DNA from: Alphaproteobacteria bacterium
Lineage (GTDB): Bacteria; Pseudomonadota; Alphaproteobacteria; JAEULC01
Direction of reading: 5' to 3'
Assembly: GCA_020851015.1 (NCBI GenBank)
Contig: JADZDN010000414.1
Span: forward strand, 1 to 14,056
DNA length: 14,056 nt
Shown here in pieces: positions 3,657 to 10,096 of this stretch. Position 1 is the stretch's first letter. The number at the start of each line of letters is the position of its first letter. The position numbers and the translations under genes were made by a program. The notes under the pieces were generated by a model. That model did no database searches. It was not told the origin of the DNA and saw only the letters and a list, made by a program, of their open reading frames with translations.

Positions 3657-4535
3657 ATGGAGCTGATCGGCCAGATCCTGGAATACCTCACCTATTCGCC
3701 GCGCGACCTGCTGCATTTCTCGCCGCGCGCCTATTTCCGCCTGTTCGCGATCAACAACGAAGCCGTGTGGCCGGCGCAGCCCGTCCTGCTGGCGCTGGGC
3801 GCGGCGCTGGCGTGGCTGGCGTTCCGCGTTTCTGCTCCTTCGGGACGGGCTCCTGAGCTCTTGTCGAAGGGCGGCCCTCCTCATCCTTCGAGACGGGCCT
3901 TCGGCCCTCCTCAGGATGACGCGATTTATTTGGGCTCCCAAACACCGCGTCATCCTGAGGAGGCGCGCAGCGCCGTCTCGAAGGATGAGAGGCGCGACCG
4001 GGTCGGGCGCCGCGCAATGTTCGCGATCCTGGCGGCGGCGTGGCTGTTCGTCGCGCAGACGTACCTGCGCGGGCAGCTCGCGACGATCCACCTCGCCGGC
4101 CAGCATTTCGCGCTCGCGTTTCTCGCGCAGGCGGCGCTGCTGCTGGCGTTTGGCGTCGCGCGGCGGGGCGCGGGGATGGCGGCGACCGGCAAAGTCCGGC
4201 GCCGGGGCGGGTTGGCGATCGTCGTGCTGGCGGTGGCGATCTATCCGACGATCGCGCCGCTCGCCGGCCGCCCCTGGGCGCAGGCGGAGATGTTCGGCAT
4301 CGCGCCCGACCCGACCGTGGCCGCGACGCTGGGCGTGCTGGTCGCGTCCGGCCTGAGCGCGCGGGCGCTGGCGGCGCTGCTGCCCCTGCCGCTCGCGTGG
4401 TGCGCCGTGACGGGCGTGACCTTGTGGACGCTCGACGCGCCCGCCTTCTGGCTGATGCCGGCGATCGGCGCGGCGGCGCTGGCGTGCGTGGCGACGGCCG
4501 GGCCTTCGACCGTGCGACCGTCGGTCCGGCGGTGA
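3657..4535 (+). CDS. DUF6064-like multi-pass membrane protein containing an inserted palindromic repeat
   Basis: A 292-residue integral membrane protein. The N-terminus (YSPRDLLHFSPRAYFRLFAI, then NNEAVWPAQP) matches my memory of the DUF6064 family, which has no known function. Hydrophobic segments are visible near residues 43-58, 119-135, 150-166, 186-204, 217-260 and 265-287. The odd feature is a hydrophilic block at about residues 60-112 (SAPSGRAPELLSKGG through EEARSAVSKDERR). It is encoded by palindromic repeats lying between the first and second membrane segments and staying in frame. Family members I recall have a short loop there. The ATG at 3657 has only a weak ribosome binding site, so coupling to the reductase 27 bp upstream is possible. 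It converges with the dioxygenase-type gene, 25 bp between stops. Confidence 0.72.
   Translation: MELIGQILEYLTYSPRDLLHFSPRAYFRLFAINNEAVWPAQPVLLALGAALAWLAFRVSAPSGRAPELLSKGGPPHPSRRAFGPPQDDAIYLGSQTPRHPEEARSAVSKDERRDRVGRRAMFAILAAAWLFVAQTYLRGQLATIHLAGQHFALAFLAQAALLLAFGVARRGAGMAATGKVRRRGGLAIVVLAVAIYPTIAPLAGRPWAQAEMFGIAPDPTVAATLGVLVASGLSARALAALLPLPLAWCAVTGVTLWTLDAPAFWLMPAIGAAALACVATAGPSTVRPSVRR
3837..3870. repeat. Short palindromic repeat (CCTTCG...CGAAGG) inside the DUF6064-like gene
   Basis: A 34-bp element bounded by CCTTCG (3837-3842) and CGAAGG (3865-3870), with GGACGGGCTCCTGAGCTC inside. It belongs to the same 'CTTCG...GCTCCTCAG' class of repeats as the pair that follows and may be a diverged unit of the cluster. 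It encodes residues about 61-71 of the membrane protein. Confidence 0.55.
3881..3988. repeat. Head-to-head pair of REP/BIME-type palindromic elements within a coding sequence
   Basis: Two 39-bp units, 3881-3919 and 3950-3988, each run from TCATCC to GGATGA and are inverted relative to each other. The left arm TCATCCTTCGAGACG at 3881-3895 is answered by CGTCTCGAAGGATGA at 3974-3988. The inner arm CCTCCTCAGGATGACGCG (3906-3923) is answered by CGCGTCATCCTGAGGAGG (3947-3964). The spacer is ATTTATTTGGGCTCCCAAACAC-like and relatively AT-rich. The central arms differ (GGGCCTTCGGCCC versus GGCGCGCAGCGCC) yet each is self-complementary, as expected for structured REP elements. The pair spans 108 bp, exactly 36 codons, and lies inside the DUF6064-like reading frame. 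Confidence 0.85.
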
Positions 4536-4560: not shown

Positions 4561-5430
4561 CTACGATGTCTTGCGCGCGGCGTCGGCGTCGAAGCCCTCG
4601 ATCCGGGTGCCGCGGTAGAGGATCTTGCCCTGGCGGTCGGCGATCGCCTTGTGCAGCGCCACGGCCTCGGGCGCCAGGTCGGATGCCGGCCGCGGCTCGT
4701 GGTCGAAATGGCGGAAGCGGTCGGCGCCGCGCACCAGCGTGGCGCTGTCGCGCGCGCCGGCGACCTGGCTGAGGCGCGTGGGGATGTAGCGGATCGCGTA
4801 GCCGATGCGCCGGTCGTCCGAGCGGTTGGGCTCGGAGCCGTGCACGATCCGCACGTGGTGCAGCGACATCTCGCCGGGCCGCAGCACCAGGTCGACGGCC
4901 TTGGACGCATCGACCTCGACCATCACCTCCTGGCCGCGGGTCAAGAGGTTCCGCTTGTCGAACGTGTCGCGATGCGCGATCTGGTCGCCGTGCGTGCCGG
5001 GAACGACGCGCATCGCGCCCGCCGCGATCGTGCTGGGCGACAGCGCGACCCAGGCCGTCGCGACGTCGGGCTCGCTCAAGCCCCAATAGGTCGAGTCCTG
5101 GTGCCAGGACACGAAGCCGGGGTCGTGCGCCTCCTTGATGAAGAAGCTGGACGACCAGCACAAGAGGTCCGGGCCCAGTATGTCCTCCACGGCGTCGAGG
5201 ATGCGGGGATGCCGCACCAGGTCGTAGAGCCAGGGGAACAGCAGGTGCGTCTTGTGGCGCAGGTTGCCCTTGAGCGGCCCGCCGGTGGCGGCCTCGTAGG
5301 CTTCGAGCCTGGCGCGGATCGCCCGCGCCTCGGCCGCCGGCATGACGCGCACGGGGAAGCAGTACCCGTCGCGGCGGTACTGCGCCAGGGCGGCGGCGGA
5401 CAGCAGCTTCGGCGCGGCGGCTGGGGACAT
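4561..5430 (-). CDS. Phytanoyl-CoA dioxygenase (PhyH)-family Fe(II)/2-oxoglutarate oxygenase
   Basis: A 289-residue protein of the PhyH family, non-haem iron oxygenases that use 2-oxoglutarate and O2 to hydroxylate a substrate. The iron-binding facial triad is visible as His110-x-Asp112 in SWHQDSTYWG and His197 in HHVRIVHGSEPN. Arg207/Arg208 (DDRRIGYAIRY) sit where the family binds the 2-oxoglutarate carboxylate. The N-terminal YRRDGYCFPVRVM and the VVPGTHGDQ segment before the distal His are also typical. The length is normal. The ATG at 5430 is preceded by GAAAGGA at a good distance. It converges with the DUF6064-like gene. The substrate cannot be predicted; bacterial members act on diverse secondary metabolites and lipids. 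Confidence 0.9.
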   Translation of the reverse strand: MSPAAAPKLLSAAALAQYRRDGYCFPVRVMPAAEARAIRARLEAYEAATGGPLKGNLRHKTHLLFPWLYDLVRHPRILDAVEDILGPDLLCWSSSFFIKEAHDPGFVSWHQDSTYWGLSEPDVATAWVALSPSTIAAGAMRVVPGTHGDQIAHRDTFDKRNLLTRGQEVMVEVDASKAVDLVLRPGEMSLHHVRIVHGSEPNRSDDRRIGYAIRYIPTRLSQVAGARDSATLVRGADRFRHFDHEPRPASDLAPEAVALHKAIADRQGKILYRGTRIEGFDADAARKTS

Positions 5431-5507: not shown

Positions 5508-5921
5508 CTACTCGGCCTCGTCGGCCTGGTCCGCGGGCTGGCCCCCGGGCTGGCCTCTGGGCTGGCCCCTGGGCTGGCTCTCCGGCTTCTTCGGGGGCGG
5601 CTCGATCATGCGGAAGTTCTGCTGGCCGGAATCCTGCTGGCCGAAATCGGCGCCGGGCTTGTGCTTGTTCTTCTCCGCGTCGGCCCGGCAGACGAAGCCG
5701 CCCGCGCCGTAGCGCGTGCTGGCATAGGCGTTCTGGCCGCGCCGGTAGTAGGTGCCGCTCTCGGCGTTGAGCCACACCACCTGGTCGCCGGGGCAGGAGT
5801 CTTGCGCCTCCTTCTGGAAGCGGTAGGTGGCGGCCTCGGCCCGGGCCGGCGTCGCGGCGGCTGGCGCGAGCGCGGCGGCAAGCAGGGCCGCCAGGGCGGC
5901 GCGGATGGGTGTGCGGAGCAT
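5508..5921 (-). CDS. Small secreted two-cysteine protein with QPxG tail repeats
   Basis: A 137-residue protein with a Sec-type signal peptide (MLRTPIRAALAALLAAALAP, Ala-rich cleavage region about 26-30). The mature part has the pattern Cys43-PGDQVVWLN...GTYYRRGQNAY...GGFVCRADAE with Cys78. This resembles small periplasmic proteins common in alphaproteobacteria with a CP-x-D-x-VVWLN...FVCR core, of unknown function. The two cysteines may form a disulfide (inference). The C-terminus is low complexity, with four QPxG/QPAD units. The frame is open upstream to 5993, but the ATG at 5921 has a near-perfect CAGGAGG five bases away, so I start there. It follows the ABC permease gene by 73 bp on the same strand; whether it belongs to that transcript is unclear. 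Confidence 0.75.
   Translation of the reverse strand: MLRTPIRAALAALLAAALAPAAATPARAEAATYRFQKEAQDSCPGDQVVWLNAESGTYYRRGQNAYASTRYGAGGFVCRADAEKNKHKPGADFGQQDSGQQNFRMIEPPPKKPESQPRGQPRGQPGGQPADQADEAE
5529..5576 (-). repeat. Four 12-bp tandem repeats encoding QPRG-QPRG-QPGG-QPAD
   Basis: Units on the plus strand are GTCCGCGGGCTG, GCCCCCGGGCTG, GCCTCTGGGCTG and GCCCCTGGGCTG. Each is four codons, so copy-number change would keep the frame of the small secreted protein. The repeat lies in its extreme C-terminal tail. Confidence 0.7.
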
Positions 5922-5994: not shown

Positions 5995-6834
5995 TCACCG
6001 GTGCGTCACCCGCCGCCGCGCCGCCGCGCGCCTGGCGACGGCGACGCCGCCGGTCGGGCGTCCGGCATCCCTGGCGTCGGGCTCGATCAGCAGGTTGAGC
6101 GCCAGCGCGGTCAGGGTGATGGCCAGGCCCGGCCACAGCATCAGCTCCGGCCGGTCGAAGATGAACAGGCGGTATTCGTACAGCATGGCGCCCCAGTCGG
6201 CGCTGGTCGCGTCGGCGCCCAGGCCGAGAAACGCCAGCGCCGCGTAGTGCACGACGTTGCGCCCGGCGTCGCCGGCGAGGTAGGCGCGCATGGTGGCAGC
6301 GCAGTTCGGCAGCACGTGCGCGCCGGCGATGCGCGCGGGCGCGGCGCCGAGCGCGCGGGCGGCCTGCACGTAGGGCATCGCCAGCAGCCGCGTCGCCAGC
6401 CCGTGCGCGACCAGCGCGTAGGGACCGGCGCCGGCGATGCCCAGGGCAAGCCCGGCCGACAGCGGGCTCAGTCCGAACAGCGCGGTCGCCGCCAGCGCCA
6501 GCACCAGGCTCGGCATGATCACCAGGAACTCGGCGGAGCGGAGCAGCACGGTCTCGACCGCGCCGCCGCAGATGGCGGCGCCGACCCCGATCGCGGTCCC
6601 GAGGAAGTAGGCGAGGGCGCCGATGGTGGCCAGCACGATCGCGGTATTGCCCGCCCCCAGCATCAGGCGCGAGAGCATGTCGCGCCCCAGGTGATCGGCG
6701 CCGAGCAGATGCGACCAGGACGGCGCGGCATGCGCGGCCGCGAGGTCGACCGCGTGCGGGTCCTGCGGCTGCCACAGCCCGGCCAGGATCAGCATGGCGC
6801 CGACCGCCGCCACGCCCTGCGCGTCGCGGTTCAT
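5995..6834 (-). CDS. Dpp/Nik-type ABC importer permease (DppC-like subunit)
   Basis: A 279-residue inner-membrane permease of the peptide/nickel/opine ABC class. The conserved N-terminal periplasmic motif HLLGADHLGRDMLSRLMLGA lies at 42-61. The cytoplasmic EAA loop that contacts the ATPase, YVQAARALGAAPARIAGAHV, is at 155-174. LGLGADATSADWGAMLYEYR, typical of DppC/NikC proteins, follows. About six membrane helices are visible. The ATG at 6834 overlaps the TGA of the upstream permease gene in an ATGA arrangement (6831-6834), indicating translational coupling. The last 25 residues are Arg/Ala-rich. No ATP-binding subunit gene follows; the next gene encodes a small secreted protein. The transported substrate is suggested only by the upstream cobalamin riboswitch. 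Confidence 0.92.
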   Translation of the reverse strand: MNRDAQGVAAVGAMLILAGLWQPQDPHAVDLAAAHAAPSWSHLLGADHLGRDMLSRLMLGAGNTAIVLATIGALAYFLGTAIGVGAAICGGAVETVLLRSAEFLVIMPSLVLALAATALFGLSPLSAGLALGIAGAGPYALVAHGLATRLLAMPYVQAARALGAAPARIAGAHVLPNCAATMRAYLAGDAGRNVVHYAALAFLGLGADATSADWGAMLYEYRLFIFDRPELMLWPGLAITLTALALNLLIEPDARDAGRPTGGVAVARRAAARRRVTHR

Positions 6835-7805
6835 CGCCGCAGCCTGGGCTCGAGCCCGCGCAGCGCCGCCTCGATCGCGGTCCGCGCCAGCAGCATCCAG
6901 ACGCCGATCGCGACCAGGTAGGCTTGCAGGACGAAGTAGTCGCGCGCGCCGATGCTCTGAACCAGGAACAGGCTGACGCCGGGCAGCGCGAACACGACCT
7001 CGGTCACGGCGGTGCCGCCGACCACCCAGGCGAATTCGGGCGCCATCGCCGCCACCATGGCGAACAGCGCCGCGCGATGCCCGTGCGACCACAGCGCGCG
7101 CGCCATGCCGAGGCCCTTGGCGCGCGCGGTGACGAAATAGGGCTCGCGCGAAGCGGCCAGCAGCTCGGTGCGATAGACCCGCGACAGCGGCCCGAGCGAA
7201 TAGAAGGCCAGCAGCAGGATCGGCGCCGCCAGCCGCGTCGCCGGCTCGCCGGAAAAGGGCCGGAGCAGCTGCAGCTTGACGCCGAGGAACCACAGCAGGA
7301 CCAGCCCCAGCCAGAATGCCGGCACGGACTGGGTCAGCACGTTGATCGCGCGCGACAGATGGTCGGCCAGCCCGCGTGGCTTCAGCGCCGCCAGGAAGCC
7401 GAGCGGCACCGCCAGCAGCGACGCGATCGCCAGGCTGCCGAACCCCAGGGCGGCGGAGATCGGCAGCCGTTCCAGCATCTCGCGGAGGATCGGCCGGCCG
7501 GTCCGGAACGAAACGCCCCAGTCGCCCAGCACGAACCGTCCGAGCCAGCTCAGGTACTGGCCGGCCAGGGGCTGATCCAGGCCCCATTGCCGGCGTAGCG
7601 CGCCGATCGTCTCGGGCGTCGCGGCGACGTTCCAGGCGACCAGCGCGATCTCCACCGGATCGCCCGGCATGGCGCGTAGCGTGGCGAAGGCCAGCAGGCT
7701 GGTGGCGAACAGCATCGCCAGCAAGCGCGCCGGGGCGCTTGCCGACGTTGCCGGCAGGCCGGCGCTGTCGGGGTCAGTCACGCGGCGGGGACGGAAGGCG
7801 CGCAA
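6831..7805 (-). CDS. Dpp/Nik-type ABC importer permease (DppB-like subunit)
   Basis: A permease of up to 324 residues, partner of the DppC-like subunit. Family features in order are LRAMPGDPVEIAL after the first membrane helix (residues 43-55), LRRQWGLDQPLAGQYLSWLG, FVLGDWGVSFRTGRPI, LPISAALGFG, and the EAA loop in YFVTARAKGLGMARALWSHG near 222-241. It ends with FALPGVSLFLVQSIGARDYF and a final helix. The start is uncertain. The longest frame begins with TTG at 7805, 10 bases past the stop of the substrate-binding protein gene. GTG at 7781 would give a start nearer the first helix and is a serious alternative; neither has a strong ribosome binding site. The close packing implies one transcript with the flanking genes. 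Confidence 0.88.
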   Translation of the reverse strand: MRAFRPRRVTDPDSAGLPATSASAPARLLAMLFATSLLAFATLRAMPGDPVEIALVAWNVAATPETIGALRRQWGLDQPLAGQYLSWLGRFVLGDWGVSFRTGRPILREMLERLPISAALGFGSLAIASLLAVPLGFLAALKPRGLADHLSRAINVLTQSVPAFWLGLVLLWFLGVKLQLLRPFSGEPATRLAAPILLLAFYSLGPLSRVYRTELLAASREPYFVTARAKGLGMARALWSHGHRAALFAMVAAMAPEFAWVVGGTAVTEVVFALPGVSLFLVQSIGARDYFVLQAYLVAIGVWMLLARTAIEAALRGLEPRLRR

Positions 7806-7814
7806 ATCCGGCCG

Positions 7815-9311
7815 TCATCGCGCCACCAGGTCGTCGCGGATGATGTAGTAGTCCGTTCCCCAGATGTCGTAGTGCGCCAGGCGCTTCGACAGGCCGATAT
7901 GGAACGGCACTTCGGCGATCGGGGCCACCGGCAGGTCGCGCGCGACGATGCGCTGCAGCTCCAGCGCCGAGGCGACGCGCTGGCGTGCGTCGCTCTCGCC
8001 TTCCATGCGCGTCAGCACGGCGTCGAGCTCGGCGCTCTTGTACCTGCCGAAGTTGCGCGTGCCGGTGCCGCGCAGCCCGTCGTTGGCGAAGAACGCCGGA
8101 TCGCCCGCGGGCGCGGTATGGGTGACGCGGAACAGCAGATCGAAATCGCCCGAATTGGCGATCGGCAGGAACTGCTCCACCACCCTGGGCGTCGTCTCGA
8201 TGCCGATCGCCGCCAGCTGCTGCCTGATCACCGGCAGGTAGATCATCAGGTCGGGCCAGTTCGAGGTGGCGTAGAGCGTGACGGCAAGGCGCTTGCCGTC
8301 CTTCGCGCGCAGGCCGCCGGCGCCGGGTTTCCATCCCGCCTCGTCGAGCAGCGCCGCCGCGGCCTTGGGGTCGTGGCGATAGGCCTGCTTGGCGGAGAAG
8401 GGGTAATGGGCCGCGTAAAGCCCCTGCGCCGGCTGGCCGGCCTTGGCGGCCTTCACCAGCATCGCGCGATCCACCGCCAGGTCGATCGCCTGGCGCAGCC
8501 TCGGATCGTCCAGCGGCGGGCGCGCGTGGTTCATGATCATGAGGTACATGTAGCCGCCGGTGATCGTGCGGGTGGCGAAGCCGGGCTGCGCCGCGATCCG
8601 GGGCAGCGATTCGGCGGGAATGCCGAACGCCAGGTCCAGCTCGCCGGATTGCAGCGCCAGCGCCATCGACTGCGTTTCGGGAAACAGGCGGATGCGGATC
8701 GGCGGGCGCTTGTCCGCGCCGGGATAGTGCGGGTTGGGCACCAGCGAGAATTCGCTGCCCGACTTCATGCCGGCCACCATGTAGGGGCCGGTGAACACGA
8801 AATCCTCGGCGCCTGCGGGCTTGTAGATCGCCAGCGGCCATTCGGCCAGCACCGAGCCCATGTTGGGAACCGCGCGCTCGCTGTCGATGCGCAGGGTCAG
8901 CGCATCGATGACCGTGACGGATATCCTGCCGGTCGAGGCGCGGGCATTGCCGTTCAGTTCGTTGCTGCGCAGCAGGCACGCCGCCACCTCGGCCGCCGTC
9001 ATCGGGCTACCGTCGGAGAACCGCACCCCCGGCTTCAGGCGCACGACCCACGCCTTGTCGCCGGCGCGCTCGACGCCCGTCGCCAGCCAGGGCGCCACCA
9101 GCCCCTGCTTGTCGACGATGAAGAGGTTCTGGCTGATGCCATGGCTGGTCAGCGCCCAGCCGTTGCTGGATTTGGTCACGTCGGTGCCCGCGGCGATGAA
9201 CGGCTTGCCGACATTGATCGTGGCGGGGATCTGCGCGGCGGCAGGATACGCGAGGCCGAAAAAGATCAGGGCGGATGCGAGCATCCGCGCGAGGCAACGA
9301 TGTTCATGCAT
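7815..9311 (-). CDS. Family-5 solute-binding protein of a peptide/nickel-type ABC importer, under cobalamin riboswitch control
   Basis: A 498-residue periplasmic binding protein of the SBP_bac_5 class. It starts with a Sec signal peptide (core MLASALIFFGLAYPAAAQ, cleavage near residue 27). The mature part shows the family's order: SHGISQNLFIVDKQGLVAPW, then VVRLKPGVRFSDGSPMTAAE, FTGPYMVAG, NPHYPG, DDPRLRQAIDLAVDRAML, KAAALLDEAGW, and the C-terminal RNFGRYKSAELDAVL. This class binds peptides, nickel, haem, opines or other metal chelates; sequence alone does not choose among them. The ATG at 9311 has a modest CCGGGAC upstream; an in-frame GTG at 9344 is possible but would put extra residues before the signal. 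The leader, 132 bases past the B12 box, identifies the regulation: cobalamin should repress expression. The DppB-like gene starts about 10 bases after the stop. Confidence 0.92.
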   Translation of the reverse strand: MHEHRCLARMLASALIFFGLAYPAAAQIPATINVGKPFIAAGTDVTKSSNGWALTSHGISQNLFIVDKQGLVAPWLATGVERAGDKAWVVRLKPGVRFSDGSPMTAAEVAACLLRSNELNGNARASTGRISVTVIDALTLRIDSERAVPNMGSVLAEWPLAIYKPAGAEDFVFTGPYMVAGMKSGSEFSLVPNPHYPGADKRPPIRIRLFPETQSMALALQSGELDLAFGIPAESLPRIAAQPGFATRTITGGYMYLMIMNHARPPLDDPRLRQAIDLAVDRAMLVKAAKAGQPAQGLYAAHYPFSAKQAYRHDPKAAAALLDEAGWKPGAGGLRAKDGKRLAVTLYATSNWPDLMIYLPVIRQQLAAIGIETTPRVVEQFLPIANSGDFDLLFRVTHTAPAGDPAFFANDGLRGTGTRNFGRYKSAELDAVLTRMEGESDARQRVASALELQRIVARDLPVAPIAEVPFHIGLSKRLAHYDIWGTDYYIIRDDLVAR

Positions 9312-9443
9312 GACGATGGTCCCGGCGACGTTGTGGCCCGTCACCGCGAACCCGGATTCCCGCTAACGGGCGATCGGACCGCCCGCTGCCGAAAATCCCG
9401 CCAGGGCACCCCGCCCGACGCGTCCGCGCGTGACCACGGTGAT

Positions 9444-9614
9444 GGCAGGTCTCCTGGCTTGCGGATCGTCGCCGATGCGCCGCCTTCCCGGTTTCCCAGT
9501 GGCAATCCTGGCGCTCGACTAGCCGCTCACAGTTGCGGGGGCAGCCGCGGCATTCGCTCCGCATCGGCGGGGCGGCACCGCGTTCCCATTCAATCCCTAC
9601 GCGGGAACCATCGC
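9444..9614 (-). promoter_or_regulatory. Cobalamin (AdoCbl-type) riboswitch
   Basis: Read on the minus strand, the core elements occur in order. GGTTCCC...GGGAACGCGGTG lies near 9610-9572, CTGCCCCCGCAACTGTGAGCGG at 9544-9523, GCCACTGG at 9503-9496, GGGAAGGCGGCGC next, and the B12 box AGCCAGGAGACCTGCC at 9459-9444. These match the conserved positions of the cobalamin riboswitch class. Between the B12 box and the binding-protein start are 132 bases with a possible stem GGTGACG/CGTCGCC (9345-9324) just before the ribosome binding site, and another at 9386-9366. Neither is followed by a U-run. Control by blocking translation initiation is therefore more likely than a Rho-independent terminator (inference). 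Ligand binding normally turns the gene off. Confidence 0.95.
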
Positions 9615-9618
9615 GGCC

Positions 9619-9648
9619 AAGCTACCCCAAGCGCCCGCCGCCGGTCAA
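9619..9648 (-). promoter_or_regulatory. Candidate promoter for the riboswitch-transporter transcript
   Basis: On the minus strand TTGACC (9648-9643) and TAGCTT (9624-9619) are separated by 18 bases. This would place the transcript start near 9612, right at the 5' edge of the riboswitch, which supports the call. The -10 element is a poor consensus match. Confidence 0.45.
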
Positions 9649-9673
9649 AGGATCGGCGACGGCGAAGCCGCGC

Positions 9674-10096
9674 CTAGGCGAGCGGCAGGCTGTGCCACCA
9701 GATGCGGCACTCCCGGCACAGCCCGCCGGCGAAACGCGCCGTGAGGATGCCGTCTAGCGCCATGCGGGGCAGGGGATCGCCCGGCTTGCGCGCGACCAGG
9801 TTGGTGCCGGTCGACGCGGCCCAGATGCGGAACAGCTCTTCCGACGCGACCTGGTAGGTCACGTGCCAATGCGCGATGCCGCCGTCCGGCGCGGCGGCGA
9901 GTATCTCGTACGTGAGCGCCACGTCCTGCTGCAGCTTGACCCGCTGCCAGTAGGCCGCGAGCGCGGCGTGCCCGCGCTGAACCGCGAAGGGCGTGTTGTG
10001 ATAGGCGCCGTCGGCCGCGAACAGCGCGCAGAATTTCGCGTCGTCCCGGCTCTCCCAAGCGTCCTTGTAGCCCTGCATGAATTGCTGGATGTCCAC
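9674..10096 (-). CDS. SnoaL/NTF2-like fold protein
   Basis: A 140-residue protein with the start typical of SnoaL-like/NTF2-superfamily proteins: QFMQGYKDAWESRDDAKFCA, then LFAADGAYHNTPF at 25-37, RGHAALAAYWQRV, and later strands GGIAHWHVTYQVAS and RMALDGILTARFAGG. The cone-shaped NTF2 fold is used by isomerases, hydratases and ligand-binding proteins. There are two cysteines in GLCRECRIWWHS near the C-terminus. I cannot assign a reaction. The start is GTG at 10096, preceded by AAAGGGAAA; an ATG seven codons in (10078) would trim the first helix. It ends about 60 bp upstream of the cobalamin riboswitch on the same strand, but that gap holds a candidate promoter, so a shared transcript is not required. 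Confidence 0.82.
   Translation of the reverse strand: MDIQQFMQGYKDAWESRDDAKFCALFAADGAYHNTPFAVQRGHAALAAYWQRVKLQQDVALTYEILAAAPDGGIAHWHVTYQVASEELFRIWAASTGTNLVARKPGDPLPRMALDGILTARFAGGLCRECRIWWHSLPLA

Follow-up and report, generated by a model that had tools for sequence, protein, structure and literature searches.

The 14,056-nucleotide stretch of DNA analyzed here (contig JADZDN010000414.1 of the alphaproteobacterial assembly GCA_020851015.1; hereafter, at its full length, the window) carries on its minus strand a cobalamin riboswitch, followed by the genes for a family-5 periplasmic binding protein and two permeases of the peptide/nickel type, without any gene for the ATPases of an ATP-binding cassette (ABC) importer. 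The reading that we favor, with a probability of roughly 60%, is that of a B12-riboswitch-controlled, ATPase-less Nik-like operon that imports cobalt and is energized by ATPases encoded elsewhere. In such a system, the riboswitch would permit expression of the three-gene operon under a shortage of coenzyme B12, an OFF-switch direction that we assume from the riboswitch family. The NikA-like binding protein would capture cobalt, most likely as Co(II) in complex with a small chelator, in the manner of NikA-type proteins, and the two permeases would move it across the inner membrane. Since the operon includes no ATPase gene, Opp/Dpp/Nik-type ATPases from elsewhere are proposed as the energy source. 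As a sequence feature, the family-5 importer with its riboswitch is real, and it is conserved; that it serves cobalt is plausible.

A search of the window with the Rfam covariance models (cmscan) identified the cobalamin riboswitch aptamer (RF00174) at positions 9627-9427 of the minus strand with a score of 111.9 bits (gathering score 31.5; E 7.1e-28). The match is complete, with all 189 model positions (1-189) aligned, and it is the sole match at gathering level in the window. This is the scan that a preliminary description of the DNA, made from the letters alone, had proposed as a check; the riboswitch core and the B12 box that it had pointed out each occur a single time, on the minus strand at 9544-9523 and 9459-9444, respectively. 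We also built a covariance model from the window and 15 relatives, taking the coordinates of the 16 sequences from Rfam matches; its score for the window aptamer is 156.4 bits, although the window belongs to the 16 sequences, which match by construction. The leader between aptamer and start codon (9312..9426, minus strand) contains G+C-rich hairpins, and the fold of 9430-9290 has a slight excess stability (z-score -1.68; 10 of 200 shuffled sequences fold equally well). A scan of 9200-9800 revealed no terminator-like site within the leader. At 9288-9271 (minus strand), among the initial codons of the gene for the binding protein, a hairpin with a T-rich stretch behind it resembles a terminator; 0.5 such sites are expected by chance. 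On the same strand, a gene for a SnoaL-like protein (9677-10096) stops about 50 bases before the riboswitch.

The first gene behind the leader (7815..9311, minus strand) encodes a binding protein of 498 amino acids that matches SBP_bac_5 (PF00496) with an E value of 1.3e-67 and no other Pfam family at 0.001; its start is most likely the ATG at 9311, which would give the protein a signal-peptide-like N-terminus. It is followed on the same strand by a NikB/DppB-type permease (6831..7805; TTG start, with the true start uncertain) and a NikC/DppC-type permease (5995..6834), both members of the BPD_transp_1 family (PF00528; E 1.6e-26 and 1.3e-16, respectively). The two permease genes overlap by four bases, the ATG of the second likely lying across the stop codon of the first. 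The gene content given in the preliminary description is borne out by these matches, and the extent of 7815..9614 that it had assigned falls short of the three-gene unit, which reaches 5995. Within NCBIfam both permeases are closest to the nickel-type Opp2B/NikB and Opp2C/NikC families, yet all scores remain below the equivalog cut-offs (Opp2B, 252.9 of 350 bits; NikB, 207.8 of 447; Opp2C, 174.7 of 300; NikC, 162.6 of 358), as do those of the binding protein (NikA, 121.8 of 393; Opp5A, 196.3 of 600). Neither a motif scan nor a tblastn search with seven Escherichia coli ATPases (NikD, NikE, DppD, DppF, OppD, OppF, and GsiA) detected an ATPase gene in the window, an absence to which the preliminary description had not drawn attention.

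To describe the relatives of this operon, a protein search with the binding protein (E 1e-20) was carried out, which found 231 homologues, 120 of them listed. The nearest full-length homologues among the matches listed are 70-84% identical and are mostly on short contigs, one of them on a contig of 170 kb; a partial relative with 79% identity belongs to a Rhodospirillales bin. We then scanned genomes with a profile, taking a single genome for each species, and obtained 58 loci with the operon family, alphaproteobacterial apart from two bins, one of Granulosicoccus and the other with no class in its name; for some of these taxa we take the alphaproteobacterial class from their names. The distribution of the family is patchy: at E 1e-60 it is present in six of 150 sampled genomes from the order of one carrier, G004, which is itself included in this count. 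With our covariance model and the Rfam model together, we found that a cobalamin riboswitch precedes the operon on its coding strand, at most 1.3 kb from the binding-protein gene, at 45 of the 58 loci. The preliminary description had named a loss of the switch from all orthologous loci as the result that would speak against it; the switch has instead been kept before most of the related operons. The Rfam model itself was applied to 11 of these 58 loci and was positive at four. The lack of ATPase genes is shared by the family as well: of the 54 loci showing the gene for the NikC/DppC-type permease (permease C), none gave a tblastn match to an ATPase on the coding strand in the 3 kb that follow this gene. 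The sequence available there amounts to at least 1 kb in 52 of these loci and at least 3 kb in 49 (less than 250 bases in L002 and L057). Four loci in which contigs end, L010, L028, L036, and L044, did not show permease C. Within these limits, the motif scan and the tblastn searches of the window and the 58 loci led us to reject a hidden ATPase in the operon.

The related operons frequently carry a partner gene between the switch and the binding-protein gene. In 25 of the 58 loci this gene combines a CbiX domain with a thioredoxin-like [2Fe-2S] ferredoxin domain (established by Pfam on three examples and by tblastn for the rest), and in 20 it encodes a DUF1636 protein (Pfam on two examples, tblastn for the rest). 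The riboswitch accompanies every CbiX-ferredoxin locus and 12 of the 20 DUF1636 loci, and eight further loci possess the switch without either partner, which is also the layout of the window. The partners follow lineages, since few label changes are required on the binding-protein tree (two for CbiX-ferredoxin compared with 18.5 in shuffles; six for DUF1636 compared with 16.8). The CbiX domain matches are weak, just above the cut-off (E 1.4e-4 to 2.8e-5), so that a chelatase activity of this partner can only be guessed. Among the 13 loci without a riboswitch match, L055 is uninformative with just 446 bases upstream, and four sit in genomes without any cobalamin riboswitch match; at least one such riboswitch was found in 54 of the 58 operon-carrying genomes (30 of 30 and 24 of 28 in two sets). 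Four genomes, G039, G041, G044, and G045, combine a DUF1636-type operon with the lack of any cobalamin riboswitch match, a pattern that suggests another form of control, switch loss, or incomplete bins.

The solved structures nearest to the binding protein are nickel-binding NikA types, and its fold is NikA-like; the top solved relative (4xkr) binds a nickel-histidine complex. In the binding-protein tree, from which the broken frames of L001 and L054 were excluded, the operon family forms a clade of its own, separate from NikA; it is set apart in this way, and by the scores below the equivalog cut-offs, from both NikA of E. coli and SaNikA/Opp5A of Staphylococcus aureus. We aligned 31 of the 120 listed homologues to E. 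coli NikA by sequence, at about 20% identity and without a structural check of the columns. In this alignment, the residues named as NikA ligands in the accessible part of the pertinent study (His416, Arg137, Arg97, and Tyr402; PMC2667541; all papers are cited here for their accessible passages) are mostly lost: His416 is mostly replaced by Gly or Ala, Arg137 falls into a gap, and Tyr402 is mostly Ala, while Arg97 is retained in 25 of the 31 relatives. The position of Trp398 is occupied by His in 30 of the 31; among the translated loci, in whose residue counts L001 and L054 were kept with stops written as X, the exceptions in this column are L054 and L030, one with Ala and one with Asn. Two loci, L019 and L023, possess a second, divergent family-5 binding protein after the operon, downstream of the NikB/DppB-type permease; it has kept His57, carries Asn at the place of His398, and its open frame extends back into the region of permease C.

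Our best guess for the substrate, cobalt or a cobalt chelate, draws on this NikA-like fold, on the partner genes, and on the co-occurrence with CobN-family genes described below. Judging by the title of entry 5yhe, there is also a structure of another family-5 protein, CntA of S. aureus, with staphylopine and cobalt. A family-5 pocket can also take a large ligand, as the entry titles of solved relatives with heme (SapA, 7ofw) and glutathione disulfide (3m8u) indicate, and cobalamin switches govern B12 transporters in many bacteria (PMC3766115), the classic control of corrinoid salvage. The operon might on these grounds import a corrinoid or a corrinoid precursor such as cobinamide or an incomplete corrinoid. 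We regard this as improbable given the nickel-histidine complex bound by the top solved relative, the CbiX-like and ferredoxin domains, which indicate metal handling, and the finding that no gene in the operon at the three annotated alphaproteobacterial loci is named as a B12 outer-membrane receptor. Of the suggestion in the preliminary description that cobalt, a cobalt chelate, or a corrinoid precursor is taken up, the B12-switched importer itself stands, with cobalt or a chelate as the best guess, but the computations do not tell Co(II) apart from a chelate or a corrinoid.

Cobalamin switches also govern B12-independent isoenzymes (PMC7689651; PMC3766115), and the operon could accordingly serve the uptake of some other nutrient when B12 runs out, e.g., nickel or a peptide or methionine source for B12-independent enzymes. 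The setting of the operon on a Shinella plasmid would suit this as well as the cobalt reading: it adjoins metE and nrdH there, with three cobalamin riboswitches within 6 kb (L110, 382-6030), one each before nrdH, metE, and the operon. The CbiX-ferredoxin or DUF1636 partners present in 45 of the 58 loci fit metal handling better, and in Kaistia terrae (L026, 13422 onward) a nik operon with a true NikA (TIGR02294, 698 bits; cut-off 393) and NikD/NikE-like genes follows 3.4 kb after the ATPase-less operon and makes nickel uptake by the latter redundant. We therefore hold a nutrient other than cobalt to be an unlikely substrate.

Cobalt import would be in keeping with the gene content of the carriers. 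A gene of the CobN family, which judging by its name takes in magnesium-chelatase relatives too, is present in 56 of the 58 genomes carrying the operon; it is found in 132 of the 150 sampled genomes from the order of G004, a sample that includes six operon carriers and covers just one of the orders concerned. The cobalt transporter gene cbtA was detected in 29 of the 58 carriers, the remaining 29 including incomplete bins, compared with 71 of the 150 sampled genomes. With no anticorrelation in these numbers, we rejected the idea that the operon replaces CbtAB. CbtA is unevenly spread over the operon types, occurring in 23 of 25 genomes with the CbiX-ferredoxin type and in six of 33 others (Fisher p 2e-8), a comparison that kinship confounds. 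Judged against CbtA only, cobalt import could depend mainly on the operon in the DUF1636 and direct types, and perhaps in the lineage of the window; rhizobia would have it as an additional importer, which might take up cobalt in chelated form.

How the permeases might be energized can be approached from the surroundings of the operon. On plasmids of Shinella, Neorhizobium, and Paracoccus the annotated order is a ferredoxin-type protein (in Neorhizobium annotated as NAD(P)H-dependent oxidoreductase subunit E), the binding protein, two permeases, and then unrelated genes, and a riboswitch precedes the operon in each of them. In contrast, two ATPase-like genes follow the permeases in more distant relatives, one from Aerococcus (annotated; 32% identity) and one from Fusobacterium (tblastn only; 34% identity), the first of the Aerococcus genes seemingly split by a frame change, and no riboswitch was found in the 15 kb examined. 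The Fusobacterium vincentii sequence (NZ_CP084075.1) is labeled a plasmid yet measures 2.1 Mb and may be a mislabeled chromosome. The simplest history would be that the alphaproteobacterial branch lost its own ATPases and now uses others. Same-strand Opp-type ATPase matches lie 1.2-1.35 kb upstream of the binding-protein gene in L003, L021, and L036, and in Paracoccus the riboswitch on the plasmid is closely preceded by the end of another, complete importer that has two ATPases; these ATPases, like those of K. terrae, are neighbors and perhaps donors, but they are too few to argue from. One carrier genome of 1.9 Mb (G020) contains two more Opp-type permease pairs without adjacent ATPase genes, on contigs C45 and C52, which makes sharing plausible there, and at least three Opp-type systems that do have their own ATPases. 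We also inspected 20 regions of about 6 or 12 kb behind other B12 switches from 12 of the 58 genomes; no Opp-type ATPase was recognized in them, the ATPase-like frames having been read by context and without a family search. Such frames occur in four regions and appear to be CbiO (L094), BtuD/FecE-like (L092 and L095), or unassigned (L086). Since no Opp-type ATPase was recognized behind these switches, the missing subunit seems not to be B12-controlled in the 12 genomes. That the operon works independently of ATP or is a decaying remnant, as its lack of ATPase genes in all 54 loci and behind the other switches might suggest, is very unlikely given the existence of relatives, 39-84% identical, across many lineages, binding-protein frames that are open in 57 of the 59 translated (all but those of L001 and L054), the coupling-loop (EAA-like) motif kept by the window permeases (the search pattern matches just one of four E. 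coli permeases), and the presence of Opp-type ATPases (oligo_HPY) in each of the ten genomes scanned.

Sharing of ATPases has parallels: a shared ATPase of the MsmX type serves sugar importers. Type I ABC importers served by shared ("multitask") ATPases encoded elsewhere have been described (PMC7658222), and the operon studied here resembles them in lacking a cognate ATPase gene; for its Opp/Nik type, unlike the sugar importers, sharing is a proposal. The control by B12 has a precedent in Nik-type importers, since the NikA orthologues are all reported to appear nickel-specific with two exceptions, in Clostridium tetani and in Desulfitobacterium hafniense, and both of these stand behind a B12 riboswitch (PMC2667541). 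These systems come from Firmicutes and are described as NikABCDE, a distinction that rests on their description and not on a sequence comparison. In contrast, the present family is alphaproteobacterial save for the two bins, lacks ATPase genes in the operon, and mostly has a CbiX-ferredoxin or DUF1636 partner. With NikABCDE of E. coli the operon shares the family-5 binding protein and the two Nik/Dpp-type permeases, but it has no nikD or nikE, its binding proteins lack His416 and Arg137 and carry His for Trp398, and a riboswitch stands in front of it instead of the adjoining nikR of the E. coli system. CbtJKL of Sinorhizobium meliloti, an ABC cobalt importer under an adenosylcobalamin (AdoCbl) riboswitch, is likewise a riboswitch-preceded importer in an alphaproteobacterium; its binding protein CbtJ is BtuF-like (PMC7689651), whereas that of the window belongs to PF00496. 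In the accessible text passages of PMC3766115, 12 cobalt-transport orthologues are counted in cobalamin regulons and the present family is not named among them; those of PMC4285132 report for Dehalobacter a predicted cobalt transporter that is ABC-type but not specified further. The accessible parts of PMC12239276, PMC3621897, PMC13119186, PMC4285132, and PMC11477304 contain no mention of the operon family, and we found no description of an ATPase-less, B12-switched Nik-like operon in the parts of the open literature accessible to us; regulon databases may already list its genes. The less-known route surmised in the preliminary description is new in its ATPase-less layout, the CbiX-ferredoxin and DUF1636 partners, and the distinct pocket, but known as regards B12 control of a Nik-type importer. 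Tentatively, and at somewhat less than even odds, the family may represent a patchy alphaproteobacterial cobalt module distinct from NikABCDE, CbtJKL, and CbtAB, characterized by the B12 switch, mostly a CbiX-ferredoxin or DUF1636 partner, a His-for-Trp pocket, and permeases that permanently lack their own ATPases and use other Opp/Nik ones.

Directly after the permeases, the window encodes a small exported-looking protein with a proline/glycine-rich tail (5508..5921, minus strand), a candidate member of the operon without a family match in Pfam (at 0.001) or NCBIfam (at 0.001 or 1e-5). A gene assigned by Pfam to the PhyH family (4561-5430) follows it. Within an open frame (3657-4535), a 44-base inverted repeat with 89% complementarity and 22 bases between its arms (3880-3989, plus strand) looks like a mobile palindromic element.

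Cobalt for B12 synthesis is provided by a patchwork of transporters, many of which were discovered via their riboswitch context (PMC7689651). The operon family described here adds a conserved and testable candidate to these cobalt transporters, and it sharpens the question of how a permease pair of the Opp/Nik type works without an ATPase gene of its own. With it, the CbiX-ferredoxin fusion and DUF1636 gain a concrete setting beside metal uptake.
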